Below are positions 1,765 through 54,229 of a stretch of 64,000 bases of DNA, in pieces. This DNA is from Halosimplex pelagicum. GTDB lineage: Archaea; Halobacteriota; Halobacteria; Halobacteriales; Haloarculaceae. Below the pieces are notes generated by a model. It saw only the letters and a list, made by a program, of their open reading frames with translations. It was not told where the DNA came from and ran no database searches. The DNA is taken from NCBI RefSeq assembly GCF_013415905.1, contig NZ_CP058909.1, positions 248,001-312,000 on the forward strand, in the 5' to 3' direction. Position numbers and translations under genes: made by a program. Within the stretch, counting starts at the first letter, position 1. Each line of letters begins with the position of its first letter.

Positions 1765-4700
1765 CGGACGGGAATTCGGGGAGCGCCGACGGCGGAGCGG
1801 AGCCATCGATCGACGACGGGTCGATCGACGGCGGAGCGACGGAATCCGGGTCGGCGGGTCGCGGAGCGGTCGCCGACGCGGTCCGAGCGCGCCGGTGTGT
1901 CGCCGTGGCGCTCGCGGACGGCCGCGTCGTCGACGCGACGGTCCCGCTCGACGACGCCCTGGGCGTGGACCCGGCGGTCGCGGCCGGCGAAGCGGACTTC
2001 TACGACGGCCTGGCGGCCGCAGCGACCGACGGCGGGCCGGTCGAGCGGGTCGCGGCGGCGGCCGCCGAGGGCGCGGCGACCGACGGGACCGCGGTGGCGG
2101 TCGAGACCGACGCGGGCCGGCGAGTCTTCCGCCACGTCGGCCTGGCGTGTCCCCCCGACTCGGCCGCCGACCGGCTGGCGCTGTTCGAGGACGTGACGCG
2201 GGCCCGCGAGCGGGCCGACCGACTCGACCTGTTCGAGACGCTCGCCGAGCGCGCCCGCGACGGCCTGTTCGCGACCGACGGCGCGGGCCGGATCGCCCAC
2301 TGCAACGAGTCGTTCGCGTCCTGGCTCGGCGCCGACCCGGCGACGCTCGTCGGGCGGCCGGTCGAGCGGTTCGTCGCCGAGCGCGAGCGGCCCGCGTGGG
2401 CGGCCGCGGTCGGCGACCTCGACCCCGAGACCGAGCTGACTCGCGAGTTCGAGTTCCGGTGGCGAGGGCCGCGCGTCGGGCTCTCGGTCGCGCTGACCGG
2501 ACGGCCGGGCGGCGGCGTCCTCGGCGCGGTCCGCCGTCCCGGCCACGAGGCCGAGCGGGCCGACCGCGTCGAGCAGTACCGGACGCTCGTCGAGAACGCC
2601 GCCGACCCGATGTGGGTCGTCGACGCCGACGACCGGATCGCCCTCGCCAACGCGGCGATGGGCGAGTTCCTCGGCGCCGACCCCGCGGACCTGGAGGGGC
2701 TAGCGGTGAGCGACCCGGTCCCGGCCGCGGCGGCCGAACGGATCGACGCGGCCCTGGAGACCGTTCGCGCGGGCGACCGCCGCCGGTGGCACGACACCGA
2801 CCTGCGGCTCCCGGACGCGGAGGGTCGGGACCGCCGGTTCGAGGCCACCTTCGGGCCGGTGCGGGCCGACGGGGCGGTCGTCGGGACGGTCGGGACCTTC
2901 CGGGACGTGACCGAGCGCGAGCGCCGCCGGACGGAACTCGAACGGCTCCGGCGGCTGCTCGCCGGCGTCGTCCGCACGGACATCGCCGACGGCGTCCGCG
3001 AGATCGGCGATCTGGCCGGCCGCCTGGCCGAGACCGTCGACGGCGAGCCCGCGACGCTCGCGGCGGCGATCCGCGACCGCGCCGACGCGCTGGCGGCGCT
3101 GGTCAGCAAGACCGCGGCGGTCGACCGCATCGTCGACACCGACCCCGAGCCGACGACCGTCGCCCTCGACGAAGCCGTCGACCGCGCGGTCGCGTCGGTC
3201 GACGGCGGTGCGGCGGCGACCGTCGACGTGGACGTGCCGTCGGTCGACGTTCGGGCCGTCCCGGTCGTCGACCTGGCGGTCCGCAACCTCCTCGACAACG
3301 CGCTCCGCCACGCCGGCGAGGCGCCGGCCGTCTCGGTGACGGCGGCGGTCGACGAGCGGTCGGTGACCCTCTCGGTCGCCGACGACGGCCCGGGGATCCC
3401 CGACGCGGAGCTCGCGGCGCTCGAACGCGGCGCGGAGACGCCGCTCGAACACGGCAGCGGCGTCGGCCTCTGGCTCGTCGAGTGGGTCGTCGCCAAATCG
3501 GGCGGCGACCTGTCGTTCGCCACCGACGACGGCACCCGCGCGACGGTCCGGTTCGACCGCGCCGACGCGGCCGACGGTCCGCTGAGCGGGTCCGACGACG
3601 AGGGCGCGAGGACGGCCGACCGCGGCGACGCCGACGTGCGCGTCTGTCACCTGGACCCGGACCGCTCGGCGACGGCGCGGATCCGCGAGGCCGCCGCCGG
3701 CGTCGGCTCGACCGTCGCGGTCGAGCGCGCCGGAGGCGTCGACGGCGCCGTCGACGCCCTGGCGACCGGCCGCGTCGACTGCCTGGTGACCGACCGCCTC
3801 GACGACCCCGGCTGGGACCGCCTCGCCGACGCGGCCGCGGCGGCCGACGCCCCCGTGGTCTGCTACGCCGGCGCCGCCCACGCCGGCGACGAGGCGCGCC
3901 TCACCGCCGTCGACAGCCTCGTCGAGAAGGGGACGGGGACCGCCCCGGCCGCGTTTCTCGTCGAGAAAGTCCTCGCACTCGTCGGCGCGGACGGGGACGC
4001 GCGCCGAGAGGGAGACACCGGAGCGGAGGCGGCCGGGAGCGACAGCGAAGCCGCCGCCAGCGCCGCCGGGCCGTCCGCTGTCGAAGTCGACGAAACCGCC
4101 GAGCCGTCCGCCGGTGCGGCGCTCCGCGTCGCGACCGACGCGGGGACGGTGACCCGCGTGCCGGACGGCCATCCCGGGTTCGACGACGCGGCCGACCCGC
4201 CGGCCGACGGGGAGGGCGCGGCGGTCACGACCGCGACCGTCGGGACGAGCCGACGCCGCGTCGGCGAGTGGGCCCCGACGCTGTCGGTCGACGGCGACGA
4301 CCTCCGGGTGCGCTACGCGCGGGACCTGACGCCGGCGGTCGCGCGCGAGCGCCGGTGCGCGCTGCTGTCGGCGCTGGTCGACCACGCCCGCGACCGCGTC
4401 TCGGTCATCGACGCGAACGGCGAGGTGGTGTACCACAACGAGGCGTTCGCCGACGCGCTGGGCCACGAGGACATGGTCGGGGTCCACTCGGCGGAGTTCA
4501 TGGCCCCGGGCGAGCTGGAGAAGGGGCAACTGGCCGTCCAGCGGTTGCTCGCGACGCCGGAGCTGGACAGCGAGGCCCTCGACGTGGCCTTCGAGACGGC
4601 CGACGGCGACCGGGTCACGCTGGCGGTCCACTTCGCGGTCCGGCGCGAGGCCGGCGAGTACGCCGGCGTCGTCAACGTCGCCCGCGACGTGACCGGCGCG

Positions 4701-11987: not shown

Positions 11988-12064
11988 GGGTGGAGACGGT
12001 GCGTCTGCTGACCGGCGGCGATCGACTCGATAATGACCACATCCACAGCGACCGAACCGACGGC

Positions 12065-12343
12065 GACCGCAAACAGCGTGAAAGCCCCGACGCGTTCGGC
12101 TCCCGGGGCTCGCTGCGCGCGCTCCCTTCGGTCGCGTGCTAGCGTCGCCCGGGTTCGCCGAACGCGTCGCCCCTTTCATTCCCACCCGTGTCGGCTGACC
12201 GGCCAGTCTGAGCGGGTGGGAATGAAAGGGGCGGCCGTCTCGACGACGGCGGCTGACGCAAGCACCGCAACGAGCGTAGCGAGTGAGGAGCGCAGCGAAG
12301 CCCCCGAGTCGAGACGGGCGGGGCTTTCACGCTGTCTGCGGTC
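12065..12343. repeat. Structured dispersed repeat, subfamily A, copy 1
   Basis: This fills most of the 532-bp gap 11988-12519. The outer arms 12065-12088 and 12320-12343 pair at 23 of 24 positions (core GCGTGAAAGCCCC / GGGGCTTTCACGC). Nested inside are P2, 12089-12100 with 12157-12168 (12 bp perfect); P3, 12170-12187 with 12214-12231 (18 bp perfect, CCCCTTTCATTCCCACCC); and P4, 12234-12244 with 12308-12318 (10 of 11). The P4 interior holds TGACGCAAGCACCGCA and GGAGCGCAGCGAA, which recur in copy 2 at 53654. No convincing protein is encoded; off-frame ORFs across it are shadows. Confidence 0.75.
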
Positions 12344-12519
12344 ACGATCGAGCCGGCGGTGCTGTGGGCTGTTGCGGTCACGGAACCGGTCACTCCGTTC
12401 GCGGCTGCGGTAGCGTCCACACGATTCGCAGTCTCGACTGCGTCGCCGTCGGTTCTCGGGCACACAACTCCTGATCGCGGGACACCGAACTTATGCCGCC
12501 GGGCGCGGCACCACCAGAC

Positions 12520-13440
12520 ATGCAACTCATCGCCCACGGCGGGGCGGGGTCGCCGCCGGACGAGCCCGCCGAGCGCCAGGCAGTGCTGGACGAGGCCGTC
12601 GCCCGCGGCGCCGAGGAATCGGACCCGGTCGCGGCGGTCTGCGCCGCGGTGCGCGTCCTCGAAGTCGACCCGTCGTTCAACGCGGGGGTCGGCAGCGCCG
12701 TCCAGAGCGACGGCATGATCCGCACGGACGCTGGACTGATGACTGCCGACGGCGACGTGGGGGCGGCGGGCGCGATGCCGGAGGTGTGCCACGCCGTCGA
12801 GGTGGCCCGGGCGGTCCTGACCGACACCCCCCACGTCATGCTCGCGGGCGAGCGGGCGGTCGCGTTCGCCCACGCGGTCGGCGTCGAGACGGGCCTGGAC
12901 CTGTGGGCCGACCGCACCCGCGAGCGGTGGGGCGACACCGAACCGCCGACCGGCGACCCCGAGGCTCATCTGCAGTGGGTCCGCGATCGGTTCGCGAGCG
13001 ACGAAAACGCGAGCGGCGACGAGAGCGACGCCGAGGCCGGGGACCACCCGCCGCGAGCTGACCCACACGACCACGACACCGTCGGCGCGGTCGCCCGGGC
13101 GGGCGACGAGATTGCCGCTGCTACCTCCACGGGCGGGCGCTGGTTCGCGCTGGCGGGCCGGGTCGGCGACGTGCCACAGGTCGGCGCGGGCTTCTACGCC
13201 AGCGAGGCGGGCGGGGCGAGCGCGACCGGCGCCGGCGAGGACATCGCCCGCGAGGGGCTGGCCCGGCGGGCGGTCGACCTGCTGGAGCGAGGGGCCGACG
13301 CCGAGGCGGCCGCGCGGCTGGCGATCGACGAGTTCGACGACGCCGCGGAGGGCGACGCGGGGATAATCGTGATGGACGCCGACGGCGGGGCGGGCGAGGC
13401 GTACAACAGCCCGGCGATGCAGACGGCGCGAGAGGGGTGA
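12520..13440 (+). CDS. Ntn-type asparaginase / isoaspartyl peptidase
   Basis: 306 residues. N-terminal nucleophile hydrolase that releases Asp from L-asparagine or from beta-aspartyl dipeptides, self-cleaving to alpha and beta chains. Seen: MQLIAHGGAG at the start; FNAGVGSAVQSDG near 53 and MTADGDVGAAGAM in the alpha chain; the cleavage/nucleophile segment HDTVGAVARA with Thr187; TSTGG near 202; GDVPQVGAGFYAS near 216; and the small glycine loop TGAGEDI near 236. An Asp/Glu/His-rich spacer (160-185) precedes the nucleophile, as is usual for the alpha-chain tail. ATG 12520 is chosen over the ATG nine codons upstream because homology starts there and a TATA-like ACTTATGC lies about 27 nt before it. 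Confidence 0.92.
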   Translation: MQLIAHGGAGSPPDEPAERQAVLDEAVARGAEESDPVAAVCAAVRVLEVDPSFNAGVGSAVQSDGMIRTDAGLMTADGDVGAAGAMPEVCHAVEVARAVLTDTPHVMLAGERAVAFAHAVGVETGLDLWADRTRERWGDTEPPTGDPEAHLQWVRDRFASDENASGDESDAEAGDHPPRADPHDHDTVGAVARAGDEIAAATSTGGRWFALAGRVGDVPQVGAGFYASEAGGASATGAGEDIAREGLARRAVDLLERGADAEAAARLAIDEFDDAAEGDAGIIVMDADGGAGEAYNSPAMQTAREG

Positions 13441-53578: not shown

Positions 53579-53653
53579 GCGGGGAGCAAGCGCGGGTGAA
53601 ACCGCTGTATCTCTCGGAACGACCGCCGACACAGCGACCGCGACCGCCGACTC

Positions 53654-53854
53654 GACCGCGAACAGCGTGAAAGCCCCTCTCCTTTCATTCCCACCCGCGT
53701 CGGCTGATCGGCCGGTCTGTGCGGGCGGGAATGAAAGGGGCCGTCCGCTCCGGGAAGACGGGTGACGCAAGCACCGCAGCCGAGCGAAGCGAGGCGAGGA
53801 GCGCAGCGAACCCCTCGACCGGAGCGGACGGGGGCTTTCACGCTGTTTGCGGTT
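53654..53854. repeat. Structured dispersed repeat, subfamily A, copy 2
   Basis: Occupies the 429-bp gap 53579-54007. Outer arms 53654-53677 and 53831-53854 pair over 24 positions (22 Watson-Crick, two G-U as RNA). P3: 53679-53698 with 53721-53740 (18 of 20 plus one G-U). P4: 53741-53752 with 53820-53831 (12 bp perfect). It lacks the P2 hairpin found in copy 1. The remainder of the gap (53855-54007) is a degenerate TGCGGTTTC-type tract with no gene. Confidence 0.75.
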
Positions 53855-54007
53855 TCTGCAGTCCGTGTGGTTTCTGCGGTCCTCGCGGTTCCTGCGGTCG
53901 CGACGGTCTCGGGGCCAGCGGTGCCGACTGCGGAACGTCCGAGCGACACACATCGCCAGCGGCTCGCACACGAAACCTCGAAGTAGGACGGATGCAAAGC
54001 CCCGCGT

Positions 54008-54229
54008 ATGGTAACTCTCGCAGAGTCGGCGACGCAGCTCGTCGACAGTATCGTCCAGATGCCGGGCGAGTTCGCGGAAGTCGCGGCCCACGACCCGATC
54101 AACTACGTCCTGATCGCCTTCGGCGCCCTGTTCGTCGCCGGTGCCTCGGCGGTGTTCGGCTACCTCTCGCTGGGTGCCGTCCTCTCGCTGTTCACCGCCG
54201 GTAGCTCGCCGCCGCCGGAAGCGCGGTAG
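54008..54229 (+). CDS. Hypothetical small membrane protein
   Basis: 73 residues. Amphipathic N-terminus (MVTLAESATQLVDSIVQM) and one long or two short hydrophobic segments (32-62). Ends PPPEAR. No family recognised. ATG 54008 immediately follows AAAGCCCCGCGT; no clear TATA box is visible. Converges with the LLM reductase gene, 37 bp apart. Confidence 0.5.
   Translation: MVTLAESATQLVDSIVQMPGEFAEVAAHDPINYVLIAFGALFVAGASAVFGYLSLGAVLSLFTAGSSPPPEAR

Follow-up and report, generated by a model that had tools for sequence, protein, structure and literature searches.

The analysed window, a stretch of 64,000 nt from Halosimplex pelagicum, contains two copies of a dispersed, tightly folded repeat, copy 1 at 12065-12343 and copy 2 at 53655-53853. 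Sequence inspection and an inverted-repeat search reveal near-perfect outer arms common to both copies, and the first-pass annotation placed these arms and the inner hairpin correctly, in coordinates and in sequence. The stems of the two copies differ in their bases while pairing is kept. The next gene after copy 1 encodes an Asparaginase_2 protein at 12520, and copy 2 is followed by a 73-aa ORF at 54008 with no Pfam match. The features are as follows, with scores from covariance model R1.

11988-12474, no strand: block without a same-site counterpart in G004 (to 12477 in G005), comprising the element and its flanks
12040-12075 and 12333-12450: GCGACC / GCGGTC repeats flanking copy 1
12065-12088, plus strand: left outer arm of copy 1, GACCGCAAACAGCGTGAAAGCCCC, inverted repeat
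12074-12187, minus strand: unit 1 of copy 1, 117 bits, E 5.8e-21, one of the 100 sequences from which R1 was built
12076-12088 / 12320-12332: outer-arm core GCGTGAAAGCCCC of copy 1
12089-12100 / 12157-12168: P2 stem, in unit 1 of copy 1
12170-12231, plus strand: inner hairpin of copy 1, CCCCTTTCATTCCCACCCG ... CGGGTGGGAATGAAAGGGG, stem 12170-12188 / 12213-12231
12188-12213, no strand: centre separating the two units of copy 1, the loop of the inner hairpin
12214-12334, plus strand: unit 2 of copy 1, 132.4 bits, E 6.1e-24, in the training set
12234-12244 / 12308-12318: P4 stem, in unit 2 of copy 1
12320-12343, plus strand: right outer arm of copy 1, inverted repeat
53594-53958, no strand: block without a same-site counterpart in G005 (53582-53967 for G004), comprising the element and its flanks
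53620-53655 and 53850-53900: GCGACC / GCGGTC repeats flanking copy 2
53655-53677, plus strand: left outer arm of copy 2, inverted repeat
53663-53696, minus strand: unit 1 of copy 2, hairpin missing, 32.1 bits
53681-53698 / 53721-53738: inner hairpin of copy 2
53723-53845, plus strand: unit 2 of copy 2, intact, with hairpin P4 (from 53740), 129 bits, E 2.8e-23, in the training set
53831-53853, plus strand: right outer arm of copy 2, inverted repeat

Copy 1 is composed of two homologous units of ~115 nt that are inverted relative to each other. Specifically, P2 is an inverted relative of P4, a homology absent from the first-pass annotation; because of it the element matches itself on both strands, and the basic unit is half of copy 1, about 115-121 nt. 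The window pair measures 279 bp, and single units elsewhere ~121 bp plus ends. The inner hairpin consists of the conserved flanks of both units, mutually paired; in other genera its TTTCATTCCC is replaced by TTTCAGTCCC and the partner side has changed to match. The arm core GCGTGAAAGCCCC is near-invariant throughout the window's genus, where imperfect GCGACC / GCGGTC repeats also flank the element and extend its outer arms; at one locus (L042) the right flank carries a tandem array of GCGGTGGCTGGGTTC. In single-stranded DNA folding, copy 1 reaches a z-score of -12.9 and copy 2 one of -9.6, with none of 200 shuffles as stable in either case. At the P2 position copy 2 holds just TCT between GTGAAAGCCCC and CCTTTCATTCCC. 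This absence had been noted before, but P2 had been taken as an addition to copy 1; same-site copies in G007 (L077) and G006 have a hairpin at the copy-2 site, so a loss from copy 2 is more likely than a gain by copy 1.

The repeat had been described as a pair of copies, and far more exist. In the window's own genome (G000, a single contig of 5.2 Mb), searching with copy 1 returns 28 matching stretches at 12 places (40 of 175 candidates scored), ten of them beyond the window; ten larger copies match on both strands, and two of the 12 places are fragments. The covariance model gives at least 17 matches in this genome (150 of 10552 candidates scored). Solitary remnants lie at G000:C1:967493-967523 and G000:C1:558373-558428, where congeners have fuller copies (L093; L065, L053). 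Across the order, the covariance-model search that the first-pass annotation had proposed finds matches in 80 of the 117 genomes drawn, and eight chosen unit-rich genomes contain at least 137, 95, 93, 90, 73, 67, 39 and 34 units (150 candidates scored in each). A pattern scan of named genomes adds at least 120 stretches, those listed including Haloarcula, Natrinema, Natronococcus, Halorussus, Halobaculum and Halosimplex. Matches also occur in 28 plasmid records, all of the twenty listed being haloarchaeal. A blastn search with copy 1 finds none in 50,697 phage records, and the exact pattern is without a match in viral contigs. Rfam yields no match in the window at its gathering threshold; a lax search of three loci returns six sub-threshold miRNA-hairpin matches, none credible. 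A search of the literature on such a repeat and on the triloop, with ISfinder outside its scope, found no description of the repeat.

The 60 genus loci follow one grammar, namely arm GCGTGAAAGCCCC, hairpin, CCCTTTCATTCCC, centre, GGGAATGAAAGGG, hairpin, GGGGCTTTCACGC, several of them lacking a part or being remnants. Their hairpin stems are of two types (G[AG]C... and CG...), one of each being present in 32 of 57 loci. In other genera the unit also occurs singly: among 128 units at 96 loci, counted after 8 of 136 matches were dropped, 84 are single and 44 paired, and a partner remnant adjoins 7 of the 84. The orientation seen in the window recurs in 21 of 22 pairs, the sole exception (+-) being L131:691-952. 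Some cassettes carry extra nested near-perfect hairpins (L045, L049 and L096 in the genus; L276 at the copy-2 site of G001), many of whose loops, judged by eye, are GNA or complementary; it is as if small palindromes had been repeatedly inserted or generated there. At L056 (~2922-3042) and L088 (~2907-3022) the hairpin interior is inverted between its own stem arms.

Synteny, which the first-pass annotation had put forward as a check for empty sites, reveals that both window sites are empty in the congeners G004 and G005, with boundaries that cannot be fixed to the base. Within the genus, 60 loci were fetched because they bear the element, and the flanks of 51 of these allow grouping with another locus. 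The hairpins at such shared sites are seldom alike. Clustering of the 104 cassettes at no less than 90% identity gives 16 groups, 11 of which span different sites; only 2 of 100 orthologous same-side cassette pairs reach 90% identity, and the median identity of such pairs is 0.73, against 0.72 for unrelated pairs. Five more near-identical cassette pairs lie on opposite sides. Moreover, whole elements are turned around. Between L044 (G000) and L052 (G003) the region is colinear at 85% identity, and the 288-bp element within it is 97.9% identical and in the opposite orientation; the excess of the element's identity over that of its region points, as far as sequence comparison goes, to a recent exchange of the element alone. 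The elements of L064/L089 (91.9%) and L062/L074 (89.2%) are likewise inverted relative to colinear flanks, and L051/L063 share one orientation.

The fold is strongly conserved. The consensus structure comprises 29 pairs and was derived from the same alignment of 100 units on which it is scored; in that alignment 96.9% of cells are paired, compared with 71.8% after shuffling, an excess of the kind the first-pass annotation had expected from many copies. Its observation that P4 keeps its pairing while its bases change extends to the family, as 24 of the 29 pairs have changed on both sides (667 cells versus 209 shuffled) and none of 500 shuffles, which ignore relatedness, attains any observed covariation value. 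Slid versions of the structure drop to 30-45% paired cells. The outer stem TGAAAG/CTTTCA also covaries in distant genera, becoming CAAAG/CTTTG (L122) and TGGAAG/CTTCCA (L123). Within the stem 79 of 100 units keep a C.C mismatch, and 97 of 100 keep a mismatch of A.A or A.C; these mismatches speak against palindromes merely perfected by template switching and favour the selected structure that had been suggested. A reading of the double changes as compensatory point mutations only was dropped, since copies differ by the replacement of entire hairpin cassettes. On the G-rich strand, G.T outnumbers A.C by 46 to 20 in alignment A1 and by 56 to 8 in A2, a set of 85 units from named genomes whose alignment was fitted to the model. 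Such a bias suggests that the molecule that folds is the G-rich strand.

Covarying pairs above chance, by shuffles that ignore relatedness, are what a structured RNA would show, and covariation alone cannot tell RNA and single-stranded DNA apart. The element could be a family of structured small RNAs, or an RNA element, whose transcript comes from the G-rich strand and is retained for a function of its own, the transposon ends described below being a mere vehicle. The very strong covariation, the one-strand G.T excess, the conserved mismatches and the persistence of units without transposon ends all agree with such a reading. The loops, however, count against it. Of the 155 units in which the terminal loop could be called (51 of 206 were uncallable, and the script slightly favours short loops), 104 have a GNA triloop and one a GNRA tetraloop, and C(GNA)G loops are especially stable in, and typical of, DNA. 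Upstream of single units no AT-rich box is marked, the maximum being 0.44 AT against 0.68 before start codons, and the upstream side, with 43 gene ends and 37 gene starts, shows no fixed relation to the neighbouring gene. The AT-rich box of the downstream genes follows the unit, which would place the unit outside any leader made from that promoter. The evidence for RNA as opposed to DNA is thus mixed, and on balance we find an RNA family quite unlikely.

The genomic setting is intergenic. With a home-made gene caller, none of 106 elements elsewhere and none of the 60 genus loci lies inside a called gene; a cruder caller had drawn an ORF across 7 of the 60 genus elements. Flanking gene orientations at the 60 genus loci are ++ 21, -- 20, -+ 14 and +- 5 with the better caller (-- 18, +- 17, ++ 13 and -+ 12 with the cruder one), and a terminator or 3'-end element was rejected on the former distribution. 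Single units are placed with a preferred orientation, their CTTTC end (the A end) facing a gene start in 53 of 83 cases. These A-end gene starts lie 75-125 nt away in 39 of 53 cases, as against 12 of 37 on the other side (p 0.0002), or in 38 of 51 against 12 of 34 (p 0.0006) once the seven singles with a partner remnant are removed, the gene starts coming from a home-made script and orthologous loci not being independent. Start codons of the downstream genes are preceded, at 26-30 nt, by an AT-rich box (n=57), which locates single units upstream of promoters. Additionally, 64 of 77 single units retain the first G-tracts, GGG.GGG, intact; the search pattern demanded the second tract and left the first free. 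A shared regulon was rejected, as 20 downstream proteins chosen from 56 fall in many families; a tRNA-intron endonuclease appears twice among them, at apparently orthologous sites, and one protein is without a match.

The facing of gene starts, the preferred distance, the intact G-tracts and the near-invariant arms of the genus loci would suit an element maintained by the host just outside promoters, a cruciform or G-quadruplex hairpin kept for its effect on supercoiling or transcription. Such an upstream or chromatin element seems doubtful to us, given that both window sites are empty in two congeners and that the genes adjoining the units are of many kinds. The distance peak may also arise because promoter-breaking insertions are lost, and the scripted gene starts and non-independent loci weigh on it as well.

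Outside the window's genus, the element carries the marks of a transposon. In several genera, a GGTAGTGTTCAG-like motif starts typically 47 nt before a single unit and a CTGAACACTACC-like motif ends typically 46 nt after it; in a first screen just 25 of 84 single units have at least one such IS6-like end. Among 14 single units with both ends, two have an exact 8-bp duplication (0.14 expected by permutation), one matches at 7/8 and one at 6/8, and the remaining ten at 0-5/8. For other genera as a whole, 7 of 107 elements (two loci being entered twice, L019/L136 and L020/L135) combine ends of at least 8/12 on both sides with a duplication of at least 7/8, compared with 0 in all 20 repeats of a mismatched-flank control. 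A second setting (ends 7/12, duplication 8/8) gives 5 of 107, with a control mean of 0.2 and a maximum of 2. These anchored searches followed IS6-like ends seen by eye, the motif being chosen after looking, and an unanchored search for ends plus duplication gives 1 of 100, with controls of up to 1. The duplication is exact at the first setting in four elements, namely the singles L134 and L200 and the inverted pairs L207 (Halonotius roseus) and L023 (G028, from the window's family). In the window's genus, IS6-type ends or duplications occur in 0 of 57 copies. Some inverted pairs (L135, L215, L169 and L170) seem, by eye, to have CTAGC-like motifs near their outer ends in place of IS6-type ones, including CCTAGCC in L135 and L215.

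A candidate source of transposase is present in several of these genomes. Of 20 PF13610 loci, drawn from four genomes, nine (in G136, G065 and G000) are elements that measure 693-698 bp, terminate in sequences of this type (GGTAGTGTTCAGATAAG, GGTAGTGTTTAGTTAG or variants of them) and are flanked by exact 8-bp duplications. Three of their ORFs score as IS6 family transposases, a name that follows NCBIfam (NF033587, 189.7-193.2 bits, cut-off 125). PF13610 has no match in four of eight genomes searched (G025, G058, G059 and G129); G025 nevertheless holds a copy with an exact duplication, and the other three hold at least 39 units each. G000 contains four IS6-family copies, each 696 bp long and equal in score (L295, L297, L300, L303), flanked by exact, mutually different 8-bp target duplications, a combination that suggests recent activity of an IS6 element in this genome.

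Collectively, the element is short, has no transposase gene inside, and in some copies of other genera ends in terminal inverted repeats with 8-bp duplications, a combination that most likely reflects placement by an IS6-family DDE transposase. Relatives thereby show what the first-pass annotation had set against its own proposal, a MITE and its transposase partner, in the form of ends, duplications and IS6-family elements; in the window's genus the count stays at 0 of 57, and there the MITE assignment rests on homology of the core. The statement that no named RNA or repeat fits holds for Rfam at threshold and fails for repeats, as the IS6-type ends and 8-bp duplications of relatives place the family within a known kind.

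A further reading takes the units for REP singlets and the inverted pairs for REPINs, mobilised by a Y1 transposase (RAYT or IS200). The layout is the same as in REP, BIME and REPIN sequences of bacteria, with intergenic palindromic units that are single or in inverted pairs and number from tens to more than 100 per genome, and a Y1 transposase is present in some unit-rich genomes, for example G136 and G129. Unlike those repeats, however, the present element is abundant in genomes with no Y1 match, such as G037 (at least 90 units), G058 (at least 93) and G041 (at least 30), and some copies have IS6-type ends with 8-bp duplications; Y1 elements, to our knowledge, make no target duplications. 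A REP-like origin is therefore very improbable. The main text of the RepRanger paper contains no word beginning with 'halo' (PMC12306157).

The best explanation, to which we assign a probability of roughly 0.78, is that the repeat is an ancient haloarchaeal transposable element of MITE type, non-autonomous, with probable IS6-family mobilisation and later cassette exchange and inversion in the genus. Its basic unit would be a ~115-nt core, existing alone or as an inverted pair, whose G-rich strand is predicted to form a single long hairpin in which certain mismatches are conserved. In other genera, some copies were probably placed in trans by an IS6-family DDE transposase. In the window's genus, where terminal repeats are absent and most fetched copies occupy orthologous intergenic sites, comparison of loci indicates that inverted pairs swap hairpin cassettes among sites and flip orientation, most likely through gene conversion and inversion by way of the inverted arms; haloarchaeal cells are polyploid, which would supply the setting. 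Copy 1 would represent a complete inverted pair and copy 2 a pair minus one hairpin. The two repeats in the window are fixed copies of a compactly folded, short DNA element that occurs throughout salt-loving archaea, most likely related to transposons rather than demonstrably a new RNA.

A MITE and nothing more leaves the order-wide conservation of the core, its survival without ends and the excess of G.T over A.C (56 versus 8) unexplained. The core might instead be a haloarchaea-wide nucleic-acid module, a strand-specific hairpin with four G-tracts and possibly a duplex-quadruplex hybrid, that rides transposon ends and, after their loss, remains near promoters at fixed positions, invertible, with hairpins swapped between sites and a host function as DNA or RNA; we hold this extension to be unlikely. 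The element accounts for many intergenic repeats of haloarchaea that had gone unannotated, and R1 allows these to be masked or counted. On the MITE reading it also shows that an intergenic element may covary strongly and still descend from a transposon. Orthologous sites with replaced hairpins and inverted elements make ectopic gene conversion in archaea testable.

Compared with known systems, the closest resemblance is to IS6-family MITEs, of which two, of 227 and 336 bp, have been described (PMC7986276), and MITEBth2 and the ISfinder entry MITEHarch3 have been named (PMC6807381). Like the present element, these are non-autonomous and a few hundred bp long, and they share the IS6-type ends and 8-bp duplications of some of its copies; the passages describing them mention neither a structured core nor a paired layout, and neither inversion nor a wide spread (PMC6807381, PMC7986276). 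MITEHarch3, whose haloarchaeal origin is a guess from its name, may be a member of the present family, the two being compared by description. IS6-family insertion sequences of Halobacteria share the ends, GGTAGTGTT(C/T)AG(A/T)TA(A/G)..., and the 8-bp duplications; the present element differs in having no transposase, and its core is absent from them. MITEHsal2 of Halobacterium salinarum, a haloarchaeal MITE of similar size likened here by its partial description, measures 411-413 bp and has duplications of 8 and 6 bp (PMC10264941). The PATEs of Haloquadratum are likewise non-autonomous and haloarchaeal with near-terminal palindromes, but as described they end like IS605 elements and lack both inverted terminal repeats and a target duplication, the last being stated there for IS605 types (PMC3119063). 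G000 has 21 matches to the TnpB C-terminal family and just two to the Y1 transposase family. An IS200/IS605 or PATE origin was rejected, there being no credible match in the 21 TnpB and two TnpA loci of G000 and duplications being present in relatives. The known kind is most likely the IS6-family MITE, and what is new is most likely the unusually conserved core, with parts swapped and flipped between species.
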